Below, in pieces: positions 6,961 through 53,403 of a stretch of DNA of 64,000 nt. The stretch's first letter is position 1. Each line of letters begins with the position of its first letter. The notes beneath the pieces are model-generated. The model was not told where the DNA came from and searched no databases. It saw nothing but the letters and a program-made list of their open reading frames with translations. The DNA lies in contig WFMF01000080.1 of the NCBI GenBank assembly GCA_011033025.1, positions 372,001 to 436,000 of the forward strand, given 5' to 3'. Both the position numbers and the translations under genes were made by a program. Source of the stretch: Beroe forskalii. Its lineage: Eukaryota; Ctenophora; Nuda; Beroida; Beroidae.

Positions 6961-6961
6961 A

Positions 6962-16690: not shown

Positions 16691-17039
16691 TAGAAAACGG
16701 TCCCCCTTTTTTACCAATATTATGACTGACAGGTAAACTAAAAGAGTAAAAGGGTAAACTATTTAGTTAGACTATTTAATTTTTCGATATCAAATGGGTA
16801 GTTCAGTTATATATTCGCGAAATCTTGGACTGAGATCTTTTTGAAATATTTTTTTTTAATCCAGATTATACTACCTATACCCCCTACCCCCCTTTTCCCG
16901 AAAAACTCCTTGGTTTTCGCATTTTCAGCCATTTTTTCAAAATGGCCGAAAAGTCCTTGAGCAGGATGCCAGCGCCCCCAGCGCCCCCAAAAAAACATTA
17001 TAACAAACAAATCCTACTTGCTGACATTTCCTGTATCGA
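16691..17039. other. AT-rich spacer, no gene seen
   Basis: It contains a C-rich patch near 16880-16900 and 'gcgcccccagcgcccccaa' near 16971-16989. No ORF with recognisable content. Confidence 0.4.
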
Positions 17040-30876: not shown

Positions 30877-31709
30877 CCCTTAGTAAGACCTGATATCGCT
30901 GACAGCAGTATTTCCAGGAAGTCAAGACTTGCTAAGCAGTTGAAGCTTTGGGGCATCGGCATTCTGACAGGGATGTGTGGTCCAGATCTGGCTCTCTACC
31001 CTCATCTCTGGATATACACGGCAGTCGAGTAGCTCTGCCAATTCATGAGAGCACGACTTTCGGCCTAGCATACAGGGCCTCTATCCTTTGCATGACTGCC
31101 ACCCGGCTTGGTCGATCAAAGCAATTTCCACTCATAACTCACCCCAATCAACTCACAACATACCCCTCTCAACTCATAATCCACCCCAATCAACTCATAA
31201 CATACCCCTCTCAACTCATAACCCACCCAAATAAACTCATAACTCACCCCTTTCCACTCATAATAACCCACCCCAATCAACTCACAACCCACCCCTTTCC
31301 ACTCATAATGCACCCCAATCAATCTGGGGTTGTGTTGAGAAACACACTTTTGTATATACCAACATTTTACACAATAGCAGTTTGGACTGAACGGAACCTC
31401 TCGGCTTCAGTTCCTTGTTTAACATGCCGTTCAGCAACTCATAACACACCCCTTTTCACTCGTAACACACCCATCTCCACTCACAACTCACCCCGATCAC
31501 CGTGCAGCTACTTGCCCATTTCATGAGTTTAGCATGTAAATGTAATATGAGTTTTTTTTTCTTGAGTTTCGAAAGCTTGAAGTATAGGTATATTATATTT
31601 AACAACCTTGAGTCTTGACTGATAGTGATAGAGACTTCAGCCACATTATACTGCTCTCCCCCTTCTAACCTCCAAAATCGGAAAGTATTCCTAAGTTTCT
31701 GAACCACAG
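30877..31709. repeat. spacer with a ~20-bp CACCCC minisatellite
   Basis: From about 31128 to 31325, and again at 31437-31500, units like 'aactcataacccaccccaatc' repeat with period 20-23 bp. I see no exon here. The last ~30 bp (31680-31709) match the intron end that precedes the exon at 44334. Confidence 0.7.
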
Positions 31710-31757
31710 GCCGGTGGAGCTCTGAGTGACGAGTGCTGGCTCTTCAACACCACCTCC
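31710..31757 (+). repeat. decoy copy 1 of the Kelch exon start
   Basis: After an acceptor-like CCACAG the sequence repeats the first ~48 bp of the exon at 44334 (GGAGCTCTGAGTGACGAGTG and on to ACCACCTCC). It then passes straight into the C-rich array. The preceding 30 bp also match the true intron end. Confidence 0.85.
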
Positions 31758-32690
31758 CCCCTTCTAACCCCATTCTTAACCCCCTCTAACCCCCCTTCTA
31801 ACCCCCTTCTAACCCCCCTTCTAACCCCACTTCTAAACCCCCTTCTAACCCCCTTCTAACCCCCATTCCACCCCTATTTTAACCCCCCTTCTAACCCCTT
31901 CTACCCTCCTGCTAACCCCTTCTACCCCCCCCCCTTCCACCCCCCTTATACCCCCCTTCTTACCCCCTGCTAACCCCCTTCTACCCCCTTCTACCCCCTT
32001 CTACCCCCTTCTTACCCCCCTCTAACCCCATTCTAACCCCTTCTTACCCCCTGCTAGCCCCCTTCTACCCCCTTCTAACTCCCCTTCTAACCCCCATTCC
32101 ACCCCCCTATTCTAACCCCCTCTAACCCCCTTCTTACCCCCTGCTAGCCCCCTTCTACCCCCTTCTAACCCCATGTTATAACCCCCTTCTACCCCCCTTC
32201 TACCCCCCTTCTACCCCCCCTCCCACCCCCCTTCTACCCCCCCTCCCACCCCCTTCTACCCCCCCTTACACCCCCTTCTAACCCCCGTCTAACCCCCTTC
32301 TAACCCCCCTTCCAAACCCCTTCTAACCCCCTTCTAACCCCCTTCTAACCCCCATTCTAACCCCCATTCTAACCCCCATTCTAACCCCCTTCTAACCCCC
32401 CTTCTAACCCCCTTCTTTGAAAGTATTCCTAAGTTCCTAAACCCACAGGCCGGCGGAGCTCTGAGTGACGAGTGCTGGCTCTTCAACACCACCTCCTCCT
32501 GCTGAACCCCCTTCTAACCCCACATTCTTACCCCCTTCTAACCCCCTTCCAACCCCTTCCAACCCCCTTCTAACCCACTTCTAACCCCCATCTAACCCCA
32601 TTCTAACTACTTCTAACCCCCTTCCAACCCCGTCCTAACCCCAATTCTAAACCCCTTCTAACCTCCTTCTAACCCCCTTCTAACCCCCAT
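31758..32690. repeat. C-rich array, CTTCTAACCCC type, block 1
   Basis: Degenerate tandem copies of an 10-11-bp word, CCCCCTTCTAA, with variants in T, A and C number. The complementary strand is G-rich (TTAGAAGGGGG), telomere-like in composition but not a canonical telomere. It contains decoy copy 2 at 32449-32504. Confidence 0.95.
32449..32504 (+). repeat. decoy copy 2 of the Kelch exon start
   Basis: 'ttcctaagttcctaaacccacag' is followed by 56 bp matching the exon at 44334 through ACCTCCTCCTGCTG. The next bases are A-CCCC, so the exon frame reads TGC TGA, a stop, where the true exon reads TGC TGG. Confidence 0.9.
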
Positions 32691-34494: not shown

Positions 34495-34591
34495 GAGTAC
34501 AGTTAAATAAGAACACAAACATTGGTCTGTTCATTCACACTTTCACATTATCGATGGGTCTTCACTACATAATTTGGAAGAGATATAACTA

Positions 34592-35427: not shown

Positions 35428-35527
35428 ACAGGTTGCGTCCGCCTATGTCATATAGCGACAGTGTGTCAAAGCTGAACTGATTTGGTACTGGTAGGGTTGA
35501 AAGTGATGCAACGAGTATGGAGGGGTG

Positions 35528-35815
35528 TTATAATTCGATGTCTTCCGTGAATTTAAGCAGTGTAGTTAGGTTCATGTTACGGGCCTGTTTAATGAATCGG
35601 AGCACCTGGTCTATTGTGGTAGGGTCTTCACCAAGTGTATGCATTCTGTTAACAGAGAATTTTGGGCAGACGCAGATGAGATGGGTAGCAGTTTCGTGTA
35701 CTTCGTCATCACAGAAGCGACAAAAGGGAGGAGTCACGTAGTCTACCTTGTTTTGGAAATGATTGAGATTATTGTGGCCTGTGATTAGTCGTGTGAGAGG
35801 TCTTAAAAATTCCAT
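35528..35815 (-). pseudogene. LINE C-terminal cysteine/histidine segment
   Basis: A 95-codon ORF with CRFCDDEVHETATHLICVCP, the C-x2-C-x(8)-H-x4-C zinc-binding motif found after RNase H in I/Jockey-type LINEs (LTRLITGHNNLNHF precedes it). It ends at the stop near 35528. Confidence 0.8.
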
Positions 35816-35856
35816 ATCTAGTTTGAAGAGATGTTGACCTTGTAATTGGTTGTCTG

Positions 35857-36363
35857 CTAGTAAAGTGATAAAGCTTTTTGTATTTTTACTGATTTTGGAT
35901 GATTTCCATCTACGACAGTACGACTAAGTTTAGTCGTGATGTGATCGAGGATTTTATTTTTAAAGACTGCATGGGGTACAGGGGGGTGGTTAGCTGCTAA
36001 GGTAGGAGAATGCTCTACCGACCTGATATTGGCTAGCTTATCAGCCATTTCGTTGCCGATATGGCCTTTATGTCCTGGTATCCAGTTGATGAAGAGTTGA
36101 TTATTAGCTGATGTTGTATTGAGGCTGTCGTGAAGATTTGATATAGTCTTGCTGGTGGTGTATGGGTTTTCGAGGGCTCTGATGAGTGCTTGAGAGTCAG
36201 TGTAAATTATAGCATTGTATTTAGCGTATTGTGGTGTAGTGAAGATTCCTTGGAGGATAGAGCTTGCTCTGAGCAGAGCATGGGCTTCGCACTGGAAGAC
36301 AGTGTTTGATTTGGAAAGGATGTAGTTTTCTGTGATTTGGTTGTTGAGGTCTAAGAATATCAC
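35857..36363 (-). pseudogene. LINE RNase H domain
   Basis: A 168-codon ORF. RNase H motifs in order: CEAHALLRASSI (catalytic Glu), YTDSQALIRALEN (catalytic Asp) and WIPGHKGHIGNEMADKLA (final His and Asp). It removes RNA from the cDNA hybrid during retrotransposition. The first catalytic Asp should lie just upstream (FTAYTDGSKHSDD-like text near 36370-36420 in another frame). Confidence 0.88.
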
Positions 36364-36467
36364 AACCCCGTATCCTGTACTGTCGTCAGAGTGTTTTGAT
36401 CCGTCTGTGTAAGCAGTGAAGATGGAGTCTCTAGGAACGACTGGGGTGAAAGCTTCCGTTGCATTTG

Positions 36468-36845
36468 CTATGTCAAGTTTGTAGTATTTGGTGCTAATAT
36501 CTTAATATCTGTAGGTTTTTCAAGATCTGATTTCTTACTATTGTATTGGCCAAAAATTTTGTTAACTATGCGGTCTATAACTATGTGACATGGTTCAAAG
36601 GAGGGTCGCTGCTTATGGTCAATGGTGACTTTTGGCCAGTGGTCCAGGCTCTTAAGTCGTAATGCTTGAAGTAGTGAGGTTTTCTCAAGTTCTAACTCAG
36701 CTGGAAGAAGGGTAAAGAGAAAGTGAAGTGCTTCTTGAGAGGTGGAATGTCGTGCCCCAGAGGCAAGAAGCAATGTTAAATTGCCAGTGCTATTGAGAGG
36801 TTGCATGTTGGACTTGGTGGTAAATAATCTAGGTGCCCATGTCAC
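36468..36845 (-). pseudogene. LINE region between reverse transcriptase and RNase H
   Basis: A 125-codon ORF on the minus strand with TSQEALHFLFTLLPAELELE, a typical 'AL..LL...P' linker of this LINE type. No catalytic motif. In continuity with the surrounding LINE despite frame changes. Confidence 0.6.
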
Positions 36846-37048
36846 ACAGGGCGTAGGTCATGATTGGTTTAATGATGGCATTGTAAATCCAGAGAATTTT
36901 GTCAGGACTGATTCCCCAGCGGTCACCTATCATTTTTCTAGTTGCAAAGAGGATATTGGTGCACTTTTTTGCGGTTACATTAATGTGGTGATGCCAGTTT
37001 AGCCTGTTATCGAGGTGGATACCTAAGTATTTAACTGTGTTGCAGAAT

Positions 37049-37900
37049 TCAATTTCTACCTAATCCATGTAATTTGAGTGGGCGAGGTAAAGGAATGTTA
37101 TACTTCCTACTGAAGATAATTACTTGTGTTTTAACTGTGCTGATTTGCAGTCCATTTTGTTCACACCATTTGTTACAAGCTGTAAGGTATTGTTGTCCAA
37201 GGTCCCTAAGCGTGGCAAGACAGAAACCTGCAATTAAAATTGCTAGGTCATCAGCAAATGCTTGGAGATGTCTGAGGGTGTCTAGAAGAATTAGCAAGGA
37301 GTCAAGTACTATATTCCAAAGAAAGGAGATAATACTCCGCCTTGGGGACACGAGTATCCAGATAATAAGTGCTATTCCTTTAAGATTGAGTTGTAGCTTC
37401 CTGGTTGATATGAGGTGAAGGATCCAATTACTTACATTGCCTTTTGCTTTGGTTTTTTCGAGTGCTTTTTTGATAGCTATGAACGGTATGTTATCGAAGG
37501 CACCTTGTATGTCAAGGAAGATTCCTAGAGCGTAGTTACTTGATTTGAGAGCTGTTTCAACTGTGGAAACTAGTTTCAGAATGGCAGCTTCAGTACTGCT
37601 TCCTTTTCTGAAGCCGTATTGTTTCGTTGAAAGGGATGCCTCTAATTTTAAGTCTCTTTGAAGGTGCCACAGTATTAGTCTTTCCATGAGTTTAAGTGTG
37701 CAAGAAGAGAGTGTAATTATGCGATATGATTTTGCTAGGAAGTAGTCATCTTTGCCAGGTTTTGAGAGAATGACAGAGTTGGAGGTTTGCCAAGCCTTCG
37801 GGAGTTTGGCGCGAAAGAGTGATAATTTGAAGATATTTAGACTTTTAGAAGAGGTACCTACTTTAATGATGTCATAGGCCTCGATTAGGATTTCGTTGGT
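37049..37900 (-). pseudogene. LINE reverse transcriptase domain
   Basis: Motifs on the minus strand: the ALPKAWQ-like region near 37800, LMERLILWHL, STKQYGFRKGSSTEAAI, GIFLDIQGAFDNI (first catalytic Asp), LWNIVLDSLL and the active site FADDLAIL, then EQNGLQISTVKTQVIIFSRK. The PQGG box before LWNIVLD is readable only in another frame (near 37340), so at least one indel disrupts the core. The ORF with all late motifs spans 37049-37687. Confidence 0.88.
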
Positions 37901-38069
37901 AATTTTGTCATTACCCGGAGATTTATTTTTCTTTAGGGTTTTGATTGCTTCATCTAATCTGTTTGGTGAGATGATATGGTCTATTTCGTCTAAGGGAAGT
38001 CTGTCCTCACATGGCGTAAGTTCGTTGAAGTCTGGTTCATTTTGTGTGAAGAGTGATGTAGATAGAAGT

Positions 38070-38694
38070 TCAAGAGTTTCTTTGGGACTCTCTGTATAGA
38101 GCCATCGGATTTCCGCAGGAGCTTATAGATGATGATTTATTGCCTTGAAGGGATTTACAAATTTTTGATACGTCTTTTTGTTTTTGAAGTCCAGAGCAGA
38201 ATGCCCTCCAGTTGTTGTTGGACTCTGTGGTTATGAGTTTGTTTAATAATGCTTCATGAGCCTTTGTATATGGCGTGCAGTTCAAGGTCATGGGGATCAG
38301 TCTCGTGTTCATTCCTAGCTTTGATTAGATTTATCTCAGCCTCGGTAAGGTCTTTTGTCCACCACGAAAGTGTTTTTCTTGTTTCGTATGAAGGTATTTG
38401 GGCAAGCAGATGTAAAGCATTTAATTAATATTCTGTTGAGGTTATCTACTTGAGTGTTCAAGTATGACATGTTCTTTTTGAATACAGATTCATTCATTTT
38501 ATCGTTTTTTAAGTGTGGACAACTTGATAATTCTTTCTTTAACATGTCTCTGAAGGAATTCCAGTTGCATTTTTTTGTATTGATGTTACGTATTGGTCTT
38601 GTTTTAATGTTGTTATTGTTAAGATTTATGACAAATTCGATAAGAACATGATCCGAGAATGAGAATTCAGGATTCGTATCCCAGAATTCAATGT
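38070..38694 (-). pseudogene. LINE endonuclease end and linker
   Basis: The text starting at 38694 reads FWDTNPEFSFSDHVLIEFVI, whose SDH motif is the last catalytic block of the APE-type endonuclease. Two ORF fragments (38336-38545 and 38070-38312) follow in different frames and form the usual endonuclease-to-polymerase linker. Confidence 0.7.
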
Positions 38695-38938
38695 TCTAAC
38701 CCCCAATTTTAAGCCCCAATTTTAACCCCCTTCTAACTCCCCTTCTAATCCCCTTCCAACCCCCTTCTAACCTCATTCTAACCCCATTCTAACCCCCCAT
38801 TCTACCCCCTTCTTAGAAAATATTCCTAAGTTTCTAAACCACTAGGCTGGTGGAGCTCTAAGTGACGAATGTTGGCTCTTCAACACTACCTCCTCCTGCT
38901 AACCCCCTTCTAACCCCCCTTCTAACCCCCTTCTAAGC
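38695..38938. repeat. C-rich array, block 2
   Basis: The CTTCTAACCCC array resumes directly after the LINE 5' end and contains decoy copy 3. Confidence 0.9.
38846..38901 (+). repeat. decoy copy 3 of the Kelch exon start
   Basis: After ACTAG the sequence matches the start of the exon at 44334 for about 55 bp, with a few base changes. In the exon frame it reads ...TCC TCC TGC TAA: the stop falls exactly where exon similarity ends and the C-rich array takes over. Confidence 0.9.
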
Positions 38939-39306
38939 GGTTACATGTCGAAGTGGTGACCGTATACCGAAACTTACATGGTCGAGGCGACAGCCGAGAC
39001 TGTGTAAGTTGGATAATGGACGAGGCGTGCCGAGTTCATTATCGAAGGTATACGGTCACAGCTGAGATCATGGAACCGGATTATACCCCGACCGGAAATA
39101 GCTGGGACCTACTATTCTCTGACCAAACAACAGTATTTCTTCCCACTCGGGTCTGACGACCCTCGTCCGGATCCAACGTTTAAGTAGATTTTTGAGTGCT
39201 CCTTTATAAAATCAAATTTACTTTTAAGCTTTTTTGCACTGAAAATCAGTGGAGACCGTATAACCAAACTTACACGGTCGCTAAAACAAGCTTGGGAGGG
39301 GTATAA
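38939..39306 (+). repeat. 370-bp element, copy 1 (inverted partner 43560-43943)
   Basis: It starts GCGGTTACATGTCGAAGTGG and runs to AGGGGTATAATA. Internal inverted words (GTGACCGTATACC near 38958 and its complement near 39050) could pair. Both copies are embedded in the C-rich array in opposite orientation, so they look like two insertions of one short element and not the ends of a single large one. Confidence 0.8.
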
Positions 39307-39412
39307 TAACCCCTTTCTAACTCCCCTTCTAACCCCCATTCTAACCCCCATTCTAACCCCTATTCTAACTCAGGTAATGACAACTGTAAGAACGTCAATT
39401 ACCTGGACCTCA
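39307..39412. repeat. C-rich array, block 3, and short spacer
   Basis: Four or five CTTCTAACCCC-type units up to about 39370, then unique sequence to the next element. Confidence 0.75.
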
Positions 39413-39418
39413 ACATTT

Positions 39419-41629
39419 GGGGGGGGGGTCCACCGGCCAACGGCCAACCGTCTTAAAAATTTGGTGTTTCGGCCAATTGGCCGTTGGCCGGTTGGCCGTT
39501 TTTTTTCCTTTTTCATCCCTGGTTTCGTCCAGAAGCATTGAAAGTTGAAAGTTGTGAGAGAAAAAGTTGTTACAATTTCTATAACTGGCATTTTCCTGCT
39601 AATTTGATTGGTGGGGGGGGGTGTCAAATGTGTCAATCAAGGTCGTTGAAACAGTTGAAATTAGCCCTTGTGCTTGAAGAATGCCCAAGCTCCATATGTT
39701 TATTATATAATGCTGTTTTATGTTGCCAAAATCAACTTTTGAAAGTTGTTAATGGTCTAGGATATGTAGATTAACCCTTGATAAGTTCAAGTTTAGACCA
39801 TCCCACCTGTAAGGTTCTTCCCTTATAGTCTTAAAAAATCCGTCACCCAGTATAGTCATGTTGTCTTATCCCTGATTCCCTGCCACGCCTGGAACTATTT
39901 CCTGTTCATGTATAAAACAAATGATTCTATTGATTGTCTCCTGCATGTATTATATGACCTAGAAGTGACATTCACAGGCCCTTGCCAGCTTGCCCTAGCA
40001 GTCCTTAATAGTTTATGCAGTCCAAGTACTAAGGCCTTATAGTTTGCAATGATTCCTACGACCCTCCGACAATACACCCCCCAACACTTGATCTATAAGA
40101 CATGTAGACATAGTCAGGAAGCTGTCAGCAGTAGGTCTGGAGTAGTTCCGGATGAGGATCGGGATCCTCTCGTTCCTCCTTGTTTCCAGGGCAGATGGCT
40201 TGATCACGTCTCCTCTGCCCAGGCACGGAACATCTTGGTTCAGGAGGAGGTTCATCCCACTTGAAGACCTTGAATTAGCTGCGGATTATTGTGTTTGATT
40301 TGAAGTTGATTCATCGAGGAATGCAATGCCGGGGGGGGTTAAATGTTGCTGCAATCCTCGAACTGTGATGATTGATCCCCCGCTTTCCTCTACAGATTTG
40401 CTGTACTGAAGTAGGTGATGTAATGTTGGGGGTTAAATGTCCCTTAACCGGTTTTATGGTGCTCTGAGCAGAGGGAAGCACCTGGTCGGAGTGAATTCCC
40501 CCTTGCAGATAACAAAGGGGAATTTGTGTACAATAACAGTGAGACTAAGTCATAAACCATAAGGTGTCCAATGATACAATGATGAGGTGCCTATGATAGA
40601 GAGATAGAGGAACTATCTGGTAAAGGTAGGGATCTGTTGTAGCTTGGGGACCAGATGTACCATCATATCCAGGATGTGCAGGGTAAGCGATTCGTCTAAA
40701 CTCCAGGTAGAGGATATATTTGTGCAGCAGGAGGGGGAGTTGGTGGTTTCTGCAACACTCGATTGAGATGGACAAAGGAATCCATTGGCGAGGGCCAGGA
40801 GCTGCAAGACAGGATGAAAATACTGAGGAGGAGACTGGGTACAAGACTCAGAACGAAGTTGTGGAGCAGTGTCAGATCAAGAGGAGTTGAGGAGGAGGCC
40901 AAGGTACTAAGGCGGGACAGGGCTGAGAATCCATGGTACTATAGTGTGAGCCGTGAGGCACTGAGTCAGGGCAACAAGATGGGCAGGGGCACTTTCAGGG
41001 CTAAATTGGGGCAAAGAGGCTGTACTGGAAGAAGGACGGTGGAAGAATGAAGTCAGGAGGTGAAGCTGAAGAGCACTGGTGTTGAAGGAGGTAATATAAG
41101 TTGTGGAAAGGTGATATAAGTGGTTGAAACTGGTTGCAGGGCCTTGAGGTTGACAGAATTCTGGGAAGCCAACTTTAGCTCCAATAGTCCAATGTCAGGA
41201 CTCTGTGCCGCAGTCTTATTAATTGGCAATCCCTTTCATCAGAATTAAGGAGCCCTCATGCAAGGAGTTTTTTTTTTCAAGCACTCAAGTACTTTCCCGG
41301 CCACTGGAACATATTCAATACCTCTTGGTGAACCTATTTAGATGAACAGTGGGATGATCCTGGTCCATGAGTTGCTAAAAGTACTAGACTGTACGAAAAT
41401 GAGCTAAATTATCTTTAATATCACATTTTTTTCAATATTAGTGTCTTCAAATGTACTCAGATGTGTTCTTAGAACTATTACAAGCAACTTTCTCTCTGGG
41501 AGTTTTTTGATTGGACCCCCCTGAAGAGTGTAAATATCAAAAATAAAAAAACGGCCAACCGGCCAACCGTCTAAAAAATTTCCAATTTCGGCCAATTGGC
41601 CGTTGGCCGTTGGCCGGTGGACCCCCCCC
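39419..41629. mobile_element. 2.2-kb TIR element with CGGCCAACGG termini
   Basis: Ends start with a G-run, then TCCACCGGCCAACGGCCAAC, then 'cggccaattggccgttggcc', and appear inverted at 41550-41629. ACATTT flanks both ends (39413-39418 and 41630-41635). The interior includes modules shared with 20663-21300. ORFs inside (40049-40264, 40763-41050) have no domain I recognise. Superfamily unknown. Confidence 0.65.
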
Positions 41630-41680
41630 ACATTTCCATCCAACCAAACAAAATTATTGTGTCTGTATATAACAAGACAG

Positions 41681-42677
41681 GGGGGGGGCCAACCCCCATA
41701 AACCCCCGGTGGATATCGAAAATGGCAAATGGGGGTTTAATTTTTGGGGGTTTATGGGGGTTTATGGGGGCTTAATTTAGTAAAATTTTGCTGGTTTATG
41801 ACTGATTTTGTTCGCGATTTTTGACGTTTTTACGGAATGGTACCATTTTTGATGAAGATTTTTGGCCTTTTTTGAAATGGTACCATTTTTTGTTGAAGAT
41901 TTTCGACCCTAATCTGAAATGGTACCATTTTTGGTTGTGTATTTTGGGACCTTTTCTGAAATGGTACCATTTTTGGCCATTTTCTGAAATGGTACCATTT
42001 TTTGTTGATGATTTTCGACCCTTTTCCGAAATGGTACCATTTTTTGTTGACGATTTTTGGCCCTTTTTGGAAGTGGTACCATTTTTTGTTGACGATTTTC
42101 GGCCTTTTTCTGCAATGGTACCATTTTTTGTTGACGATTTTCGACCCTAATCTGAAATGGTACCATTTTTGGTTGTGTATTTTGGGACCTTTTCTGAAAT
42201 GGTACCATTTTTTGGCCATTTTCTGAAATATGGTACCATTTTTTGTTGATGATTTTCAACTCTTTTCCGAAATGGTACCATTTTTTGTTGACGATTTTTG
42301 GCCCTTTTTGGAAATGGTACCATTTTTTGTTGAAGATTTTCGACCCTAATCTGAAATGGTACCATTTTTTGTTGTGTATTTTGGGACCTTTTCTGAAATG
42401 GTACCATTTTTGGCCATTTTTTGAAATGGTACCATTTTTTGTTGATGATTTTCGACCCTTTTCCGAAATGGTACCATTTTTTGTTGGCGATTTTCAACCA
42501 TTTTCTGAAATAATACCATTTTTGTTGCGTATTTTCGGGCCTTTTCTGAATGAAAATTTGACCTTTTTCGAAATGGTACCTGGAAAATTAAACCCCCATA
42601 AACCCCCAAGTGGATATAGAAAAAGGCAAATGGGGGTTAAATTTTTGGGGGTTTATGGGGGTTGGCCCCCCCCCCCC
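41681..42677. mobile_element. TIR element whose core is a ~42-bp KpnI-site tandem repeat
   Basis: Inverted ends: a G-run, then CCAACCCCCATAAACCCCC. The 8-bp flanks CAAGACAG at 41673-41680 and 42678-42685 fit a target duplication. The core (41835-42580) is about 18 copies of GGTACCATTTTTTGTTGA plus 'tgattttcgacccttttccgaaat'. With period 42 (14 codons) it gives long Trp/Tyr/His/Phe-rich pseudo-ORFs on both strands. Confidence 0.85.
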
Positions 42678-42685
42678 CAAGACAG

Positions 42686-43559
42686 ATGACTTTAACTTCT
42701 CTGTAGTTTCCTTAACATTTCCACAGAGTAATATCCCTCTAGAAGTAGGCCATAATGTTTTTTATAGTCAAATCCTTAGACCTATGCTAACATTTGTACA
42801 GAATTTGAGACTTTCCTTTTCAATCTTAAAAAAGTTTTCCAAAAACTGATTGAAAGAGGATACAATAACTCCAATCTTGTTGACATCATTAAACGTTGCC
42901 TAAATAAGAATAGCTCAGTTTTTCAAAAATATGCCATTTTAGATAATAGTATAATCTTAGATCAATTTGATTAGGTGTCGACCCGCGAGGTTCTTCACAT
43001 TCTGTACAGGGTTGTTGTACAGCTTATTGCTGACCTCGAGCAATCTACTGCATGATTAGCCTGGGACTGAATGTGTAGCTGAACAGGCAGATGCCTCCAA
43101 CCTCCATTTCATTTCATTTTTAACTTTCTCTTTCATGTTTTGATAGCATACAGTAACATCTAAATATTTCTCACGATTTTAGCACTCAATGATCTTTCAC
43201 CTCTACTGAACTCTTTCCTTTTCCTCTCCCTTCCCTCTAAACTGTGTTGCTCAGGAATCCGGAGTCCTGGGTGGCCCAGCCCTGCAGTTGTAAGCTGTGA
43301 GGGGTACGTGGGCCGAAACCCCTCCGTTTCCCTTTGTCACCTGCTGATGGGACACCTACATCGCAGATGGCAGGGAAACCTTACTACTGTAGGGTAACCG
43401 CTGACGATTCACAGTTTAGTCTCTTCCGCCTCTTATGCCTATCCTTACATTAGAAAATCGATATGCAGTAATTTGTTATGTTTGTAGTATACACATACAC
43501 CTCTATAGATAAGACATTGGATCCCATTCTAACCCCTATTCTTACCCACATTCTAACCC
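42686..43559. other. 0.85 kb with no recognised gene
   Basis: Mixed sequence. 43240-43440 is relatively GC-rich ('ctgggtggcccagccctgcag') and could be a dispersed repeat, but I cannot assign it. A few C-rich array units reappear at 43521-43560. Confidence 0.4.
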
Positions 43560-43943
43560 CTATTATACCCCTCCCAAGCTTTTTAGCGACCGTGTAAGTT
43601 TGGTTATACTGTTATACGGTTTGCAATGAATTACCTACAGTGCAAAAAAAGCTTAAAATGAAATTTGGTTTTATAAAGGAGCACTCAAAAATCTACTTAA
43701 GCGTTGAATCTGGACGAGGGTCGTCAGACCCGAGTGGGAAGAAATACTGTTGTTTGGTCAGAAATAGTAGGTCCCAGCTATTTCCGGTCGGGGTATAATC
43801 CGGTTCCATGATCTCAGCTGTGACCGTATACCTTCGATAATGAACTCGGCACGCCTCGTCCATTATCCAACTTACACAGTCTCGGCTGTCGCCTCGACCA
43901 TGTAAGTTGCGGTATACGGTCACCACTTCGACATGTAACCGCT
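43560..43943 (-). repeat. 370-bp element, copy 2, inverted
   Basis: Reverse-complement match to 38939-39306, with small differences (for example, an extra 'ctgttatac' near 43605). It ends ...CACTTCGACATGTAACCGC at 43943, then the C-rich array resumes. Confidence 0.85.
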
Positions 43944-44333
43944 TATTCTAACCCCCACTCTAACCCCTATTCTAACCCCCATTCTTACCCCCTTCTAACC
44001 CCCTTCTTACCCCCTTCTAACCCACATTCTAACCCCTCCCCCATTCTAACCCCCTTCTAACCCCCCTTCTAACTCCCCTTCTAACACCCCCTTCTAACCC
44101 CCTAACCCCTTCTAACCCCCCTTCTAACTCCCCCTTCCAACCACTTCTAACCCCTTCTAAGTTCTAACCCCCTTCTACCCCCCCTTCTAACTCCCCCTTC
44201 CAACCACTTCTAACCCCCCTTCTAACTTTCTAACTCCCCCTTCCAACCACTTCTAACCCCCTTCTAACCCCTTTCTACCCCCCCATTCTAACCCCCCTTC
44301 TTAGAAAGTATTCCTCAGTTCCTAAACCCACAG
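43944..44333. repeat. C-rich array, block 4, ending at a true 3' splice site
   Basis: CTTCTAACCCC units run to about 44300, then 'cttagaaagtattcctcagttcctaaacccacag' leads into the exon. The repeat word contains CTAAC, a good metazoan branch-site match, plus a pyrimidine tract. Confidence 0.85.
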
Positions 44334-44472
44334 GCTGGTGGAGCGCTGAGTGACGAGTGCTGGCTCTTCAACACTACCTCCTCCTGCTGGACTCAATACC
44401 CTTCTCTGGTGGAAGCAGTAGCAGGACACACCCTCACACTAGCTCCCCCCAACAGGGTGCTCCTCTTTGGAG
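44334..44472 (+). CDS. MEGF8/attractin-like gene, Kelch exon A
   Basis: First visible exon (139 bp) of a Kelch-PSI protein of the MEGF8/attractin family, large membrane proteins with extracellular Kelch propellers. Acceptor CCCACAG at 44327-44333; donor GAG|GTAATG after 44472. The frame reads AGGALSDECWLFNTTSSCWT, then AGHTLTLAPPNRVLLFGG, a Kelch blade ending in the hydrophobic strand plus di-glycine. It ends in phase 1 and joins exon B to restore Gly. Upstream exons (CUB, EGF and earlier blades in family members) are not visible; the 12 kb upstream is array and TE. Three truncated copies of this exon's start lie in that array. Confidence 0.82.
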
Positions 44473-44781
44473 GTAATGGGCGTACAGTGTACACCCATTG
44501 AACCTCCTTTTTATATTACAGCTTGACTGAGTGGTTTCTTTGGAGCAAGAAGTACTTCCCGGCCCCTCAATCTATTAAATCTGTATGAGCATTGGGTTAC
44601 AGTATATAGATTTCATAAATTGAGGAGCCGGGAAGTACTTTTAGCACCCCTTGAGAGACCCAAGTTTAGTCAAGCTGTCATATAATAAGGAAATTTACCA
44701 TCAGTACTGTACTCCTAGCTGAAATTTCCAGATTGGTGTCTATTGTATACTGTATTGGTGTCTATTGTATACTGTATACTA
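44473..44781 (+). other. intron A-B, left part
   Basis: Intron DNA beginning with the donor GTAATG. It contains a short inverted pair around 44550-44640 ('aagtacttcccggcccctca' and its complement) and a duplicated 'ggtgtctattgtatactgta'. No exon seen. Confidence 0.5.
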
Positions 44782-46170
44782 CCTTATCGGACATAATTAT
44801 CACGTCCATTACGTTCACGCTGAGCACCTCAGCGTGAATATTGATGTCCGTGAAAATTTTGTCCGTGAAACTAGGTAATGTACTGTACATGATTTTCAGG
44901 TCCGTGAAAATCAAGTCCGGTATTTCCTCCTAAAATTTCTAAGATAGAGACACAAAATTTTTGACTTCATCTCTTTAAATGCACAAAAAATAAAAAATGT
45001 TAACCTGGGAATTATATTTTCATGCTTAGTACCTGCAATATGGGGTAGCAATTTCAGATACCATTCTGTCAGCGCCACCACTTGAAATACCACTATTATT
45101 AGTAATGTGAGAGAATATACAATAAGTATTACTATTAGTGAAAATATGTTGATGAACGAAAGTAGACACGTGAGTTCGTAACCAGTAAGTGTGATAGAGT
45201 ACAATTACATGTAACAGTAATAACAGTCTCGTAGATAGTACTGGTCTCTCAAATAGTACTGTCTCAAATCCCCTTATAGAGTTCCCTTCAATCCTCCCCT
45301 TGTAGTAAACTCTCCTTGTAGTAAAATCCCTCGTAGTGTCGTCCCAAGTGTAGAGAAAAAGCTCTAACTAAAACAGTAAAACTGCCTCCCGTGTCCTGGG
45401 ATTATTAAAGTATTAACCCCAGATTAGAACGACTTTTGATCACGTGAGCATACGTACTACCTATTTTGGTTGGTTCTCAAAAGCTCAAAGTCTCCAAACC
45501 TATGATTGAACCCTATTACCCTAGTCCCTATGTCTCATTGTGATTGGTTCTCCTTCAGTTGCATTGAAACTGCTGAATTCTCAAAGACGCTCAATTCCAA
45601 TATTATTAAAATAGTAAAATATGTTGACCACTTAGAACCACTTAGGAAAGTTTAAATAATATTATTTCCAATTGTCTGGGTTCAACTTCTTTGGCGCCTA
45701 ACCCTTTGGCGCCTAACCCTTGTATAACAAAGGATTCATAATTTCAAGAGATTCTTCAATTGCCAAAAAACCGAAGCAGAATAGGCGTACCATGTATTTG
45801 CAATTAATATAATAATCTCTAAACTGAATAATATTAATAACATTAGCAAAATATTACTCAGAGGGTTTAGAGACCCAGTTTAGAGGGTCCAGTTCCTAGC
45901 TTTGTCACCAATCTAAATTGGCGTACGCATTTGAGACAAAATGTGGTGCTCAAAATCCCAAATATGGAAATTTATAATATTAATTAACGAAAAATATTGA
46001 AAAAAATATTCAATTCAAGTATTCAAATCGTGGAAGAAAATGAGAAAAATCGAGCCGATAATTTCGAAGTTTTCTTGAAATTTTAAGTGGCTGGATTGAG
46101 CGTGAATATTTATGTTCGTGAAGTTTTTGGTCCGTGAAACTAAAGTCCGTGATAATTATGTCCGATAAGG
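44782..46170. mobile_element. CCTTA-terminus TA-target element, 1.39 kb, intronic
   Basis: Termini CCTTATCGGACATAATTATC and its inverted copy ending GATAAGG at 46170, flanked by TA (44780-44781 and 46171-46172). The sub-terminal words GTCCGTGAAA and CACGCTGA recur at both ends. No coding domain recognised. It fills most of the intron between exons A and B. Confidence 0.85.
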
Positions 46171-46172
46171 TA

Positions 46173-46627
46173 GGTATGATACGTAGACACTCAAGCCTAA
46201 TCGGGTTGAAGTATTGGCCCTTAGAAACTTAGAAACTAGACCATTGCTTCAGCCTTCAGGCTGTGGGTTATAGCCATATCCATCTATCGGGCTCCGCAAA
46301 ATGGACCTATAGGGGCATAGGGCCTACCGACAAGTGCGCACATAAGAATCTATTTCCCATAGTCTAACAGCTTAAAAGGGTGACATGTCAATGAATTGAG
46401 CTGTTGAGCACTTGAGATGCTGAAAACGACAACTGCGCACATTGCAGCACAGCCAGCTCAGAATCTAAACCAAACAACAAGTGCACTCAATGTTTCTAGT
46501 GGTGACTCCGAGTGGGGAGTCTCTTGGCGTTGCCAATGCCCCACCACGCGCAGTTTAAGAGTTTGTGATTTAAGCCCTAGATGCTCCCCTATATAACTTT
46601 CTCTGTTCTCATCTGACTTCCCCACAG
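46173..46627 (+). other. intron A-B, right part
   Basis: Unique sequence of about 450 bp ending in a pyrimidine-rich stretch and CCCCACAG at 46620-46627. No other feature seen. Confidence 0.5.
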
Positions 46628-46854
46628 GACTAACTGGCGTTGACACTGAGAACTACTCCGACCGCCTGTACACCCTCTACCTCCTTAAGAACCACACTGC
46701 CACGCCCTGGGAACTGACTACGCCCATCATCCCCCACTCCAACCATCTCCGGAGATACGGGCACACCACCGTCCTCGACTCCGCCTCACGCAGTCTCGTC
46801 GTGTTCGGAGGCATTGTGCCTCTGCCTCGCATTCAGAAGGAGAAGAGTAGTGAG
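46628..46854 (+). CDS. MEGF8/attractin-like gene, Kelch exon B
   Basis: A 227-bp exon that completes a Gly codon with exon A and then reads LTGVDTENYSDRLYTLYLLK, next RRYGHTTVLDSASRSLVVFG with another di-glycine, the canonical Kelch RYGH...hhhhGG pattern. It ends ...KEKSSE, phase 0. A second in-frame donor six bases further (GTGTGG|GTGAAA, exon to 46860) would add Val-Trp. The next exon also begins GTGTGGGTG, so the two junctions differ only in repeating Val-Trp. Acceptor CCCACAG. Confidence 0.85.
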
Positions 46855-46885
46855 GTGTGGGTGAAAACCCTCATTATAATGTTTA

Positions 46886-47088
46886 CCTTAGGAGGTGTAT
46901 TTATGTGGGGTAAAATTTCGGTGTTTCAAATTTTGGTCAGTTGAAAATATTACTCTTGTTATTACTCTTGTTAACATATTATAATGATAATGACGTCATT
47001 TTGAAATTTCATGGTGGGTGAAAAATGGGGATTTTTCTGAAAAATCCCCAAATTACAACCTTTTTAATAAATAAACCTCTTAATAAGG
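46886..47088 (+). mobile_element. 203-bp CCTTA-terminus MITE, intronic
   Basis: Ends CCTTAGGAGGTGTATTTATG and inverted CCTTATTAAGAGGTTTATTT, flanked by TA (46884-46885 and 47089-47090). It contains 'gaaaaatggggatttttctga' and 'aatgacgtcatt'. The closely related 198-bp copy at 48656-48853 is in the opposite orientation. It makes up almost half of the B-C intron. Confidence 0.88.
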
Positions 47089-47322
47089 TATTTGGGATCA
47101 AAAATAGTAAATTCAACTTAACACGTCAAGCGATGACTGAAATCCCCGAAGGGCACTGCAAAGGGCTTCAAAAAATATCATTAAAATCAACTTTATACTT
47201 GACTTAGCACACATTGATAAACGTATTAAACACATTTGTGACTCTTCGTCTTTATTTTGGTGACATTTTCTCATTTTGTCAAAATTATTTATCATGTGTT
47301 TCAACTCGCTATTCATTCTCAG

Positions 47323-47564
47323 GTGTGGGTGTATAACATCGCACAGAACGTGTGGTCTCTGGTGAAGACAACTCGGGAGGTGCCGGGTGTGGTGTTCCAC
47401 AAGGCGGCGTCTTTGGGCCGCTACATGATCGTGTTTGGGGGTAGTCTCCAGGATGACGAAGAACACGGGAAGTGTTTCAGTGGGGAGATGTTTGTGTTTG
47501 ACATGGGTTGCATGGAGTGGACTGCTCTGCCGTCTGCGAAGCAAGACCAGTTAGCGACCCCAAG
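47323..47564 (+). CDS. MEGF8/attractin-like gene, Kelch exon C
   Basis: A 242-bp exon. Acceptor TTCTCAG; donor CAAG|GTACTG. It reads VWVYNIAQNVWSLVKTTREV, then FHKAASLGRYMIVFGG, then FSGEMFVFDMGCMEWTALPS. This is two blade halves; the 'GKCFSGEMFVFDMGCMEW' order is what I know from attractin/MEGF8 Kelch propellers. It ends in phase 2 (AG) and joins exon D to give Arg. Confidence 0.88.
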
Positions 47565-47839
47565 GTACTGAATACTGATATATGCACTCTTCAGGCCCAT
47601 CTCAATCATTGTCCATATTGATATATTTGAGGGTTTTCTGCTAAGTCCCAAATTCAATCTTTACGCGCCAAACAAAAGCGCGTAATGCGCGCTGTAGTGC
47701 CAAGTTTGTGAGATAGATACTTCTTCAAAGAAGGCAAGATACTGTACCAACCCACACGCGAGATTACTTTAAGGAATTAATTTAAGGCAAAACTTTAAAG
47801 AAATTGTCACCGTACACGTCTCAATCAGTAATCACTCAG
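47565..47839 (+). other. intron C-D (275 bp)
   Basis: GT...CAG intron without an obvious element. Contains 'cgcgccaaacaaaagcgcgtaatgcgcgc', a small GC-rich self-complementary stretch near 47658-47690. Confidence 0.6.
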
Positions 47840-47995
47840 GTACGGTCACGCCGTGGCGGTGTACCACGGCACGCTGCTGGTGGTGGGAGGTTTCAGTGGT
47901 CGGAGTCTGAGTGACGTGCTGCTCTACTCACCCCCGGGGGAGGACTGCGCCACCACCCCGCGACGCAGCTGCGAGGACTTCCAGCACTGCGTCAG
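47840..47995 (+). CDS. MEGF8/attractin-like gene, Kelch exon D
   Basis: A 156-bp exon. Acceptor CACTCAG; donor GTCAG|GTGAGA. The joined frame gives RYGHAVAVYHGTLLVVGGFS then GRSLSDVLLYS, the last Kelch blade, followed by a cysteine-bearing tail SCEDFQHCV that leads into the PSI exon. It ends in phase 2 (AG), completed by G at the start of exon E to make Arg. Confidence 0.88.
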
Positions 47996-48021
47996 GTGAG
48001 AAGAGGGGTTCCTGGCCAGGG

Positions 48022-48050
48022 CGGTAACCCCCGCGATGGGGGTTACCGCG
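48022..48050. repeat. short perfect hairpin GCGGTAACCCCC
   Basis: GCGGTAACCCCC and GGGGGTTACCGC are separated by 5 bases. The same left module (CTGGCCAGGGCGGTAACCCC) occurs at about 17941-17960. Located 26 bases after the exon D donor. Confidence 0.8.
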
Positions 48051-48655
48051 TCAGGTGGGGTCTATTTCTATAAAAGTATAAATAACTAAATAACACACGA
48101 CCAGTTGAAAATTCATTTTTAATAACCATAAAGCGTTAAAAATTTTACCCGTCTTTATCGAGCCATCTGTCAATGGAGCGGTCTGCACACGTTTGCGACT
48201 CTGCGTAAAATCTATCGTAGACTATAATTGTCAGGGCTGTTAATTCAACAGTTCAAACATTATCAAAACAACCCGGGTATCAGGTGCGGTAAGCAGTGTA
48301 AGCCGGTGGAGAAGTAGATTAATATGTCGTAGAATAATATGTTGTTACTAAGTTACTACACACTATAGAGGTGTGGATTTGGGAATATTCCTTGAGGAGA
48401 AGCCGAGTGGAATATCTGAATATGGGAAATCCACTCCGAAATAGTGTGTAATAACAGTATTGTCTAACGACCCGAGCATTAAATAATGAATAATAATTAT
48501 CAGGTGCGGTAAGCAGTGTAAACCGGTGGAGAAGTAGACTAATAACTTAATAATATCAGGTGCGGGGTCGTAGAATAATATGTTGTTACTACACACTATA
48601 GAGGTGTGGATTTGGGAATATTCCTCGAGGAGAAGCCGAGTGGAATATCTGAATA

Positions 48656-48853
48656 CCTTAGGAGGTTTATTTATGAAGGTTGTAATTTGGGGATTTTTCA
48701 GAAAAATCCCCATTTTTTCACCCATCATGGCAGTTCAAAATGACGTCATTATCATATGTTAACAAGAGTAATGACTTGAAAAATCCCCATATTTTCAACT
48801 TACCAAAATTTGAAACACCGAAATTTTATCCCACATAAATACACCTCCTAAGG
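48656..48853 (-). mobile_element. 198-bp CCTTA-terminus MITE inside the 233-bp array
   Basis: Termini CCTTAGGAGGTTTATTTATG and CCTTAGGAGGTGTATTTATG (inverted) with TA on both sides (48654-48655 and 48854-48855). In neighbouring units the same place reads 'atctgaaTAtgggaaatcc', so the empty site is visible next door. Confidence 0.92.
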
Positions 48854-49953
48854 TATGGGAAATCCACTCCGAAATAGTGTGTAATAACAGTATTGTCTAA
48901 CGACCCGAGCATTAAATAATGAATAATAATTATCAGGTGCGGTAAGCAGTGTAAACCGGTGGAGAAGTAGACTAATAACTTAATAATATCAGGTGCGGGG
49001 TCGTAGAATAATATGTTGTTACTACACACTATAGAGGTGTGGATTTGGGAATATTCCTTGAGGAGAAGCCGAGTGGAATATCTGAATATGGGAAATCCAC
49101 TCCGAAATAGTGTGTAATAACAGTATTGTCTAACGACCCGAGCATTAAATAATGAATAATAATTATCAGGTGCGGTAAGCGGTGTAAACCGGTGGAGAAG
49201 TAGACTAATAACTTAATAATATCAGGTGCGGGGTCGTAGAATAATATGTTGTTACTACACACTATAGAGGTGTGGATTTGGGAATATTCCTCGAGGAGAA
49301 GCCGAGTGGAATATCTGAATATGGGAAATCCACTCCGAAATAGTGTGTAATAACAGTATTGTCTAACGACCCGAGCATTAAATAATGAATAATAATTATC
49401 AGGTGCGGTAAGCAGTGTAAACCGGTGGAGAAGTAGACTAATAACTTAATAATATCAGGTGCGGGGTCGTAGAATAATATGTTGTTACTACACACTATAG
49501 AGGTGTGGATTTGGGAATATTCCTCGAGGAGAAGCCGAGTGGAATATCTGAATATGGGAAATCCACTCCGAAATAGTGTGTAATAACAGTATTGTCTAAC
49601 GACCCGAGCATTAAATAATGAATAATAATTATCAGGTGCGGTAAGCGGTGTAAACCGGTGGAGAAGTAGACTAATAACTTAATAATATCAGGTGCGGGGT
49701 CGTAGAATAATATGTTGTTACTACACACTATAGAGGTGTGGATTTGGGAATATTCCTCGAGGAGAAGCCGAGTGGAATATCTGAATATGGGAAATCCACT
49801 CCGAAATAGTGTGTAATAACTTAATAACAGTATTGTCTAACGACCCGAGCATTAAATAATGAATAATAATTATCAGGTGCGGTAAGCAGTGTAAACCGGT
49901 GGAGAAGTAGACTAATAACTTAATAATATCAGGTGCGGGGTCGTAGAATAATA

Positions 49954-50433
49954 CCTTATTGTAACAAATTTAGTAAGCAACTAATTAATCCGCAGGAAAA
50001 TAATAAAGCAGCAAATTAAGAAACTTTTTTAAGGCTGAAAATTAATTAAGAAACTTTTTTGGAACTGGAGTAAATTAAGAAACTTGCATAGCTCCATAGA
50101 ATGAGAATATTTAATTGTTACTGAAATTTTTTTCACAGACAAGCAATTTTTTCCTATAAGTTTGTAAAATATTCAAATTCCGTGCTCAACCCGGCAAAAG
50201 GATCTAAAAGTAAGTCAACCGAGGTGTCTCTTGAGTCTTTTTTGGCTTTTGAACTACAAATTTTTTAATGTTAATGTAAAATTAATATTTCATTAAAATA
50301 AGAGACACAAAATTAAGGTTCATAAAATTAATCTACATATAATTGAAAAAACATTAAATTAAGAAGCAGTTTATTAAGAAACTTTTTTGCCCGGTTTCTT
50401 AATTAACTGCTTTCTTAATTTCATGTAATAAGG
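49954..50433. mobile_element. 480-bp CCTTA-terminus MITE inside the 233-bp array
   Basis: Starts CCTTATTGTAACAAATTTAG after TA (49952-49953) and ends CATGTAATAAGG before TA (50434-50435). The empty site 'tagaataaTAtgttgttac' is intact in other units. It carries many AATTAAGAAACTTTTTT words near both ends, shared with the pogo-like transposon at 53668-57723. Confidence 0.9.
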
Positions 50434-50812
50434 TATGTTGTTACTACACACTATAGAGGTGTGGATTTGGGAATATTCCTTGAGGAGAAGCCGAGTGGAA
50501 TATCTGAATATGGGAAATCCACTCCGAAATAGTGTGTAATAACAGTATTGTCTAACGACCCGAGCATTAAATAATGAATATAATATAATTATCAGGTGCG
50601 GTAAGCGGTGTAAACCGGTGGAGAAGTAGACTAATAACTTAATAATATCAGGAGCGGGGTCATAGAATAATATGTTGTTACTACACACTATAGAGGTGTG
50701 GATTTGGGAATATTCCTCGAGGAGAAGCCGAGTGGAATATCTGAATATGGGAAATCCACTCCGAAATAGTGTGTAATAACAGTATTGTCTAACGACCCGA
50801 GCATTAAATAAT

Positions 50813-52512
50813 CATTATGCAACTTCTAAGGAGGTTTACACAGTGCTCCTTTATACCCATTATGCACGCTAAAACAGTTCCACTTTTTAAAAAGTGTAAC
50901 TACAGTGCCAAAAAAGTGGAACTGCAGTTGATAATAAAACCATTTTGGCATTGTTCCCCAGTGTTCTTCAAAACGTGACCTTATTATATAGCAGGGAGAG
51001 GTGTTAAAAATGAACACTGGGGTGACAGACCGCAGATTTCACACTGAAGGATACAGTAGCTGCTCTTATTACAATAGCTCAAATACTAGACAAGCCAATA
51101 ACACTACATATTCTATTATTCTCATATTCTTGCTTGAATTATACATAATTACGAAATATATGCCTAAATGTATTGTCGTTGCATAATTCGGTTTTGTAAC
51201 TCGCAAAACTGCAAACCTTCCATTAAAACCTCGGCCTTCGGCCTCGGTCTTAATGTGTTATTATGCCCTCGCGCTTCGCGCTCGGTGCATAATATCGCGG
51301 TTTGCAATTTTTGCTAGTTACAAAACCTCTCAATGGCCAATCTTCATCAATTCTGACCACATATGCACACAATTTAGGTGGGGTTGTGTACTGGGACGGG
51401 GAGGGATTTACAGATTTCCAATTGGGCTCATAAAGTTGGAGTTAGCAGTGAAGTCGCTGGACGTAACGTTAATAAATCCCAATTATGCAACTTCTAAGGA
51501 GGTTTACGCAGTGCTCCTTTATACCCATTATGCACGCTAAAACAGTTACAGTTTTGAAAAAGTGTAACTACAGTGCCAAAAAAGTGGAACTACAGTTGAT
51601 AATAAAACCATTTTGGCATTTTTCCCCAGTGTTTTTCAAAACGTGACCTTACTATAGCGGGGAGAGGTGTTAAAAATGAACACTGGGGTGACAGACCGCA
51701 GATTTCACACTGAAAGATACAGTAGCTGCTCTTATCACAATAGCTCAAATATTATATAGACAAGCCAATAACACTACATATTCTCATATTCTTGCTTGAT
51801 TATGCATAATTACGTAATATATGCCTACATGTATTGTCGTTGCATAATTCGGTTTTGTAACTCGCAAAAACTGCAAACCTTCCATTAAAACCTCGGCCTT
51901 CGGCCTCGGTCTTAATGTGTTATTATGCCCTCGCGCTTCGCGCTCGGTGCATAATATCGCGGTTTGCAACTTTTGCTAGTTACAAAACCTCTCATTATGC
52001 AACTTCTAAGGAGGTTTACGCAGTGCTCCTTTATACCCATTATGCACGCTAAAACAGTTACACTTTTTAAAAAGTGCAACTACAGTGCCAAAAAAGTGGA
52101 ACTACAGTTGATAATAAAACCATTTTGGCATTATACTCTAGTGTTTTGAAAACGTGACCTTACTATAGGAGGGAGAGGTGTTAAAAATGAACACTGGGGT
52201 GACAGACCGCAAATTTCACACTGAAGGATACAGTAGCTGCACTTATTACAATAGCTCAAATACTAGACAAGCCAATAACACTACATAATACATAATATTC
52301 TCATATTCTTGCTTGAATTATACATAATTACGAAATATGCATCTACATGTATTGTCGTTGCATAATTCGGTTTTGTAACTCGCAAAAACTGCAAACCTTC
52401 CATTAAAACCTCGGCCTTCGGCCTCGGTCTTAATGTGTTATTATGCCCTCGCGCTTCGCGCTCGGTGCATAATATCGCGGTTTGCAATTTTTGCTTGTTA
52501 CAAAACCTCTCA
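50813..52512. repeat. three ~520-bp tandem units with strong hairpins
   Basis: Units at 50813-51333, 51482-51993 and 51994-52512, the first two separated by ~148 bp of other sequence. Each ends with two perfect stem-loops, CTCGGCCTTCGGCCTCGG-like and CTCGCGCTTCGCGCTCGG-like, then 'gcataatatcgcggtttgcaa'. An inner self-complementary pair ('aacactggggtgacag', 'ccccagtgtt') is also present. No coding evidence. Confidence 0.9.
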
Positions 52513-52527
52513 ATATATAATTATCAG

Positions 52528-52662
52528 GTGCGGTAAGCAGTGTAAACCGGTGGAGAAGTGCCGGCACCGGATGAGTCAGTGCGGAGTGTGCTACAGACTG
52601 AGCCACTGCACGGAGTGCACCCTGTGGGGCTGCGAATGGTGTGTCGAGGACGCCAGCTGCAG
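52528..52662 (+). CDS. MEGF8/attractin-like gene, PSI exon E
   Basis: A 135-bp exon, acceptor TTATCAG, donor GCAG|GTAATG. With phase-2 input from exon D it reads RCGKQCKPVEKCRHRM, then SQCGVCYRLSHCTECT and LWGCEWCVEDASC: ten cysteines in 44 codons, including GCEWC, the signature of plexin-semaphorin-integrin (PSI) modules that follow the Kelch propeller in attractin and MEGF8. I chose the acceptor at 52527 over a later AG because only it keeps the frame from exon D. Its first 31 bases are copied eight times in the array upstream. Confidence 0.87.
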
Positions 52663-52817
52663 GTAATGCTATCAGTAAAACCAATAATTACTCCGGCAAT
52701 TGATGACGTTTCAATATCAAATGCACACATAAACAATGGACGAATAATTCTAAATCTGCTAGTTTTCTCTCCAAAACGTTGTTATTCATTCCATCACCCG
52801 GGTGATTTCCATTGCAG

Positions 52818-53082
52818 GACGCGGGGTAGCGGCAACCTGTGCGGCGTCCAGTCCCCGGCCCCGTGGTGGGGCTCTGCGGGCTCTCTCCTCCTCGAGCCTG
52901 CGCAGTGCGAGGCCCGCGACACGCCCCCCGGCCTGCACTGGATCACGCACCACGACCCAATCAACACCACGCACCCCGACCACGTGACCATCGTGAGGAA
53001 GGCTGACGTGCACCTGCTCTATACGAGGGACTGGTCGCTGCCTCAGGGGGACAAGGATGTGCGGTATAGGGGCTATCTCCAG
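52818..53082 (+). CDS. MEGF8/attractin-like gene, exon F
   Basis: A 265-bp exon. Acceptor CATTGCAG, donor CTCCAG|GTATGG, preceding intron 155 bp. It completes Arg with exon E and reads TRGSGNLCGVQSP, PAPWWGSAGSLLLEPAQCEA, DHVTIVRKADVHLLYTRDWS and KDVRYRGYLQ. It is GC-rich and codon-biased unlike the AT-rich surroundings. I cannot name the domain; it looks like a beta-rich extracellular segment after the PSI module. Ends in phase 0. Confidence 0.8.
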
Positions 53083-53228
53083 GTATGGGTTTCTTTGGAG
53101 GTGCTGGCTTCCTTGCTTGCAATTTTGAAATTTTTATGTGATTCTCGGATTTGTCTGATTATAAGACGAAAACTGGAGACTTTTTCAATTTTTGATGAAT
53201 TAAGAAAAACCCAGCATCTTATCCGCAG

Positions 53229-53403
53229 GGCTTTATAAACGTGACGACCCCCGAGGGGGGCGGGAAAGCCCCCACAACCCCTTACAACATGGGGCCTGGT
53301 GGGGTGCCGGATCATTACGAAGTGATCAGACTCAGCTACATTCATGGAATAGTGACGCTTTACACGGGGGTGTCGCGCTACAACGCTACCCGAGTTATGA
53401 CAG
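53229..53403 (+). CDS. MEGF8/attractin-like gene, exon G
   Basis: A 175-bp exon. Acceptor TCCGCAG, donor GACAG|GTGAGT, preceding intron 146 bp. Frame: GFINVTTPEGGGKAP, then PDHYEVIRLSYIHGIVTLYT and GVSRYNATRVMT, phase 1 at the end. It continues the beta-rich extracellular region; NVT and NAT are potential N-glycosylation sites. The next exon is not in the window: the intron is entered by a 4-kb transposon at 53668 and then by repeats and a LINE. Confidence 0.82.

Follow-up and report, generated by a model that had tools for sequence, protein, structure and literature searches.

An intron of a gene in the ctenophore Beroe forskalii, whose product matches the attractin/LZTR1 beta-propeller, contains eight copies of the 3' splice site at which that intron ends, each carrying the first bases of the following exon, and the question is whether such copies do something for the gene or are left over from the way in which its intron grew. 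We examined them in a 64,000-nucleotide stretch of DNA (contig C914:372001-436000, hereafter the window) and searched the genome, 216 Mb in 1,134 contigs, for related sequences. Our analysis makes it fairly probable that these decoys are by-products of tandem duplication over an exon-intron boundary, tolerated by the gene and generated by a process common to many genes; the copying itself was probably accidental.

Seven exons (K, A, B, C, E, F and G; 44334-53403) join into a single open frame of 446 amino acids, the product of which gives the beta-propeller match (PF24981, 5.9e-43). The intron between exons C and E is 4,532 bp long and most likely spans 47996-52527, since the 446-residue frame joins there and two homologues, P0001 (64% identity) and P0002 (57%), continue across the C-E join with the start of exon E kept; the junction from 47995 to 52528, on which the original prediction for this locus depended, is thereby supported. 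The pattern CVRC-K-CKPV-KC is also kept in the alignment, with R replacing the last K in P0002. We take the cysteine-rich part of exon E to be a PSI domain, as it had been named before, and Pfam gave no PSI match.

Each of the eight decoys consists of the acceptor and 32 bases of exon E with at most one mismatch, the match being exact in four and broken once in the other four, at position 19 (AAA versus AAG) in the first decoy and at position 12 (CAG versus CGG) in three. An in-frame TAG stands directly after the exon piece in 8/8, most simply read as one inherited junction rather than eight independent events. The acceptor block had a best local score of 44.0 against a maximum of 11.0 among 40 shuffles and chance is therefore excluded. 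An 18-mer spanning the acceptor, TTATCAGGTGCGGTAAGC, has eight exact occurrences in the genome, seven in decoys and one at the true exon, and decoy 1 lacks its first T. The long-form decoys are spaced by 220-1932, and seven of the eight units also hold a short form, ATCAGGTGCGGGGTCGTAG (six exact, one variant). A donor-like GCG/GTAAGC (a slash marks the splice site here and below) lies 5 nt into each long decoy, is the only donor-like site before the decoy's stop and is present in true exon E too. The original prediction had correctly recognised the copies, their derivation from exon E, their place inside the intron that E ends and the in-frame TAG; it counted 31 exon bases, gave a short form to every unit where the first has none, and its positions were about right except for the first (48291, where TATCAG begins at 48278).

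Besides the exon-E piece, the 233-bp unit contains ~147 bp of a dispersed repeat. The unit has at least 97 matches in the genome, a lower bound from scoring 40 of 244 candidates, of which 10 lie within the array; the 87 outside it among those listed span the non-exon part of the unit only. The 18-mer is likewise confined to this locus. The exon-derived origin stands, the listed copies of the unit elsewhere being without the exon bases. In the two arrays examined elsewhere (L039, L040) the dispersed repeat forms tandem units of ~188 bp with a spacer of its own, and the array in the window is made of exon-E pieces and a derived form of this repeat in alternation. The converse possibility, that exon E was born from the repeat, was rejected, as both homologues keep the start of E, which the listed dispersed copies lack. 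The array is not an unbroken series of 233-bp units: two inserts with ACCTTA-type ends lie inside it, and repeats of ~510-670 bp separate it from the exon.

A second copy of the gene, on contig C196, has all seven exons, unchanged in length and separated by introns at identical positions, and differs from the window copy by 70 synonymous and 16 nonsynonymous codons, so both copies have been under constraint. Its C-E intron is 1,257 bp long and without the array, with a short acceptor-like remnant found there by eye, and in exon E it carries CGG and AAG, as some of the window decoys do. Copied boundaries recur within the same gene. In the window (31672-44472) the exon K acceptor with up to 56 exon bases is present in three copies together with the CCCCCTTCTAA satellite over 12.6 kb, whereas the J-K intron of C196 measures 284 bp and has one decoy against more than 12 kb, satellites and three decoys in its window counterpart. 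All seven differences within the first 48 bases of the K decoys are synonymous, and the decoy at 38805 is identical to C196 exon K over 55 bases, four of which differ from its own exon. Because a number of decoy variants agree in this way with the other copy of the gene, the copying probably involved recent exchange between diverged copies or alleles. Donors are copied as well: the 642-bp intron that follows exon F of C196 has eight CTCCAG/GTA sites, of which the first is the true donor and the other seven lie downstream of it, the repeated unit being the end of exon F, the donor and the start of the intron with a first step of 69 bp. The F donor of the window copy gave no match to this donor array.

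Beyond this gene we surveyed 46 loci from two families, kinases and helicases. The kinase sample consisted of six multi-piece loci and 20 hits starting inside the domain that were taken by hand (one had an internal stop, and others of the kind were left), and the helicase sample of the first 20 hits with a profile start of at least 30, an open frame of at most 180 amino acids and no stop; related genes such as both C340 loci are included, so that the loci are not independent. Decoy acceptors were found at 8 of the 46 loci, namely at 2/6 (L070, L072), 1/20 (L085) and, for the helicases, 5/20 (L100, L102, L106, L110, L111), the copy including 20 exon bases or more at six of them; L070, L072 and the K decoys were tabulated by eye under other mismatch limits than the remaining loci. 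Tandem arrays near the acceptor rather than across it were present at L075, L076, L095 and L103. Decoy spacing was 70-85 at L100, L110 and L111 and 40-85 at L072. The L100 array has 22 decoy matches and that of L110 has 68 (C170:151090-156256, between exons 156286-156408 and 150972-151079), in a helicase intron of 5.2 kb where the exon ends AG/GTAGG, the first acceptor follows ~50 nt on and the remainder is array. No second genomic place was found for the L110 exon, and the gene, if expressed, must therefore be spliced past the array. The copied segment of L110 has ACCTA at its two ends, in the intron as well as in the exon, and at L070 TAATCCCTCCC stands in the exon and TAATCTCTCCC in the intron tail; these short common sequences suggest microhomology-mediated duplication at both junctions. 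A donor is duplicated at L122, where CGGACATCAG/GTAA occurs twice. Six further donor windows (L115-L120), in only three of which the donor was judged to be near, gave no decoy donors, L116 having one 26-bp repeat inside the intron; these windows are too few for acceptor and donor rates to be compared. The view of the array before exon E as an oddity of one locus was rejected on the cases at exons K and F and at the kinase and helicase loci, and that of a process limited to acceptors on the C196 F donor array and the duplicated L122 donor.

Three side observations were made at these loci. At L111 and L123 (C169) the decoys resemble complete 27-nt mini-exons, CAG/GTGTTGCTGGTGGCAGGGCTCCTGCAG/GTGACT, 12 in L111 and more in L123, and could be cassette microexons. 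At L121 (C170) the intron has, just past the donor, a second copy of 17 bases from the exon before it (AAGTGTGAGGCGGTCAA). Many kinase domains among the genome hits sit at full length within a single open frame, from which intron density seems to differ strongly among the genes of this genome.

Where decoys differ from their true exons they do so mostly at synonymous sites, 24 of 27 being synonymous and three not, with ~8.3 synonymous expected (binomial P 5.6e-10). The sites come from nine sets (exon E, exon K in the two gene copies and six other loci) and the six loci outside the window gene alone gave 14 synonymous against one (P 2.6e-6), L110 being among them without a substitution. Counts were made by hand after seeing the data, with indels left out and sites common to the decoys of one locus counted once, the exception being +3 of K, which was counted for both gene copies. 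Positions beyond the copied part were left out (L072 after +6, where differences are mostly nonsynonymous, L102 after +12, L111 +22 and K decoy 1 after +48), as were L072 and L085 altogether, whose copied parts are free of differences. All five substitution sites of L100 are synonymous and were confirmed by alignment. Coding constraint on the decoys themselves is disfavoured as the cause, since indels not divisible by three occur in 2/15 L100 decoys (the same one-base deletion, not in a run) and in 4/14 L110 decoys (one base in three of them, 2 + 3 bases in one), those of L110 lying largely in C or GT runs. We read the excess as pointing to recent copying from functional alleles, though short-read polishing could look alike.

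The most economical history for the decoys before exon E would begin with a short duplication over the acceptor, or with an element inserted beside a duplicated acceptor, either of which could have left an extra acceptor and exon start upstream of the true one. The unit of acceptor, 32 exon bases and dispersed repeat would then have multiplied in tandem; the resulting array is directly visible, and unequal exchange was probably the engine. Further elements have inserted into the array and moved it away from the exon, as can be seen in the window. Under exon definition the donor of the real exon would pair with the nearest upstream acceptor, so that the last acceptor alone would count. We infer that the decoys have no regulatory function, and none is needed to account for them.

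Several acceptors at one intron end are familiar from NAGNAG-type alternative 3' splice sites, which stand in a row a few nucleotides apart. The arrays described here differ from these in a spacing of about 40 bp to kilobases, in their near-identical exon starts and in their tens of copies. Closer to the original prediction is the idea of a regulatory decoy or poison region, in which use of a decoy would give transcripts ending at its TAG and lower expression, as poison exons do when splicing to them meets an early in-frame stop and triggers nonsense-mediated decay. The E decoys would reach such a stop, and acceptor, exon start and junction stop are kept in all eight, with exon parts that differ from true exons mostly synonymously. 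Against this, the constrained C196 copy has no array, so that it is not conserved between the gene copies, the TAG seems to have been inherited as one junction, no clear donor lies downstream (GCG/GTAAGC, the sole donor-like site, belongs to the true exon too), far larger arrays are found in unrelated genes (L100, L110) and decoy exon parts there carry indels not divisible by three. A special role of this kind, as suggested earlier, is not supported and very unlikely, although E decoys could have a part in some transcripts. Misassembly of the arrays, or polishing that put haplotype variants on repeat units, is equally doubtful. It would account for differences that are nearly all synonymous, as with heterozygous sites, for L110 indels largely in C or GT runs and for the placing of exons I-J and K-G on different contigs; it fits poorly with units that vary in their intron tails, their length and the presence of whole inserted elements, with an L100 deletion outside any run and with the many separate loci of different periods.

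PMC9860276, PMC2809761, PMC4974935 and PMC3443670 were consulted for comparison with known systems. Introners (PMC9860276) are dispersed elements in introns with direct repeats at splice sites and extra AG/GT copies; applied to this locus, such an element would insert at AG/GT, duplicate its target and create or rebuild splice sites, the decoys being enlarged target-site duplications. A dispersed multi-copy element is indeed present, and TATCAGGTGCGG borders it at both sides within a unit. A short insert with a 10-bp duplicate lies at the exon C donor between copies of GCGTCAGGTG, C196 having the empty site, and the A-B intron (window 46854-47323) is bounded by a direct repeat AG/GTGTGGGTG, with 11 identical bases in C914 and 13 in C196, a structure to be expected where insertion or tandem duplication gave rise to the intron. 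The predicted protein P0002, which comes from a 590-kb contig, covers mid-B to G without interruption, and the relative that it represents may lack the introns from B to G. We nevertheless regard this explanation as unlikely, as C196 has the C-E intron without the element, which therefore did not create it, as the arrays of L070, L100, L106 and L110 consist of intron tail and exon start only, with no dispersed element, and as 32 bases exceed the 3-9-bp target duplications of introner families described earlier (PMC9860276). Also comparable is intron gain by tandem duplication in ATP2A1, potato RdRp and fission yeast, where a duplicated segment with splice signals adds splice sites to a gene; in fission yeast, introns that hold a few tandem copies are known (PMC4974935). 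In B. forskalii it is an existing intron that grows, since C196 has the C-E intron without the array and L110 keeps its ~50-nt start, there are up to 68 copies, and the copied piece is the tail of the intron with the start of the exon, or the end of the exon with its donor. Keyword searches of the open-licence literature listed nothing similar beyond tandem-duplication intron gains, and growth of an intron by tandem copying of its own edge seems to be a mode little described.

Several points weigh against tolerated by-products of boundary duplication. The synonymous excess is unexpected for old neutral copies, and one must then assume that functional alleles were copied recently or that the assembly is at fault. 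The copied exon part is only about 6 bases at L072 and 12 at L102, the 46 loci, partly hand-picked from two families, include genes that are related to one another, and use of the last acceptor alone is our reading. The C914 and C196 copies may be alleles or paralogues. Searching the window by blastn with C196 as query found no exons upstream of K; exon I, present on C196, has an 89% counterpart on C458 and none on C914. Exons K-G of one gene copy are placed in the middle of contig C914, and the sequences closest to exons I-J in the middle of C458. The window copy may on these grounds be truncated, split, rearranged or misassembled.

A broader and tentative proposal, which we hold to be somewhat less likely than its negation, is that introns of this lineage grow largely at their edges by self-copying, acceptor and exon start (or exon end and donor) becoming a minisatellite. 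Decoys and exon edge would then co-evolve through unequal exchange among alleles, the decoys forming a reservoir that renews the working exon start time and again, with nonsynonymous variants purged at the last position and the spliceosome keeping a strict nearest-to-exon rule under which dozens of perfect acceptors would go unseen. Arrays of up to 68 near-identical acceptors are a natural experiment on the choice of the last among many equal splice sites, and would mislead gene predictors.

Table 1 Features of the window, with the first exon-like base of each decoy and of exon E
Feature	Position	Strand	Exon-like start	Remark
Decoy of exon K acceptor	31672..31757	+		in CCCCCTTCTAA satellite
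Decoy of exon K acceptor	32408..32504	+
Decoy of exon K acceptor	38805..38900	+
True exon K	44334..44472	+		kelch
Exon C	47840..47995	+		last kelch exon, exon D of the original prediction; donor CAG/GTGAGA
Insert at exon C donor	47989..48057	+		short, hairpin-bearing, GCGTCAGGTG on both sides; C196 is the empty site
Decoy 1	48278..48315	+	48284	TATCAG + 32 exon bases, TAG
Decoy 2	48498..48535	+	48504
Insert inside array	about 48653..48856	.		ACCTTA inverted ends
Decoy 3	48931..48968	+	48937
Decoy 4	49164..49201	+	49170	CGG variant
Decoy 5	49397..49434	+	49403
Non-exon part of one 233-bp unit	49473..49619	+		dispersed repeat
Decoy 6	49630..49667	+	49636	CGG variant
Decoy 7	49871..49908	+	49877
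Second insert inside array	about 49951..50437	.		ACCTTA-type ends, bounds approximate
Decoy 8	50590..50627	+	50596	CGG variant
Three copies of another ~510-670-bp repeat	50805..52516	.		between array and true exon E
True exon E	52528..52662	+	52528	PSI-like, CGKQCKPVEKCRHRMSQC...

No exon after G was found with a short protein motif in the window, L059 or C196. Homology of the J-K intron in the window begins ~5 bp past the donor position. Elsewhere in the window, open frames at about 6400-11700 resemble, by their motifs, the protease and integrase parts of a long terminal repeat (LTR) retrotransposon, and a 20-bp unit, ACAGACCCACTCTGTAGAGA, is repeated in tandem in 161 copies over 3.3 kb (13394-16698).

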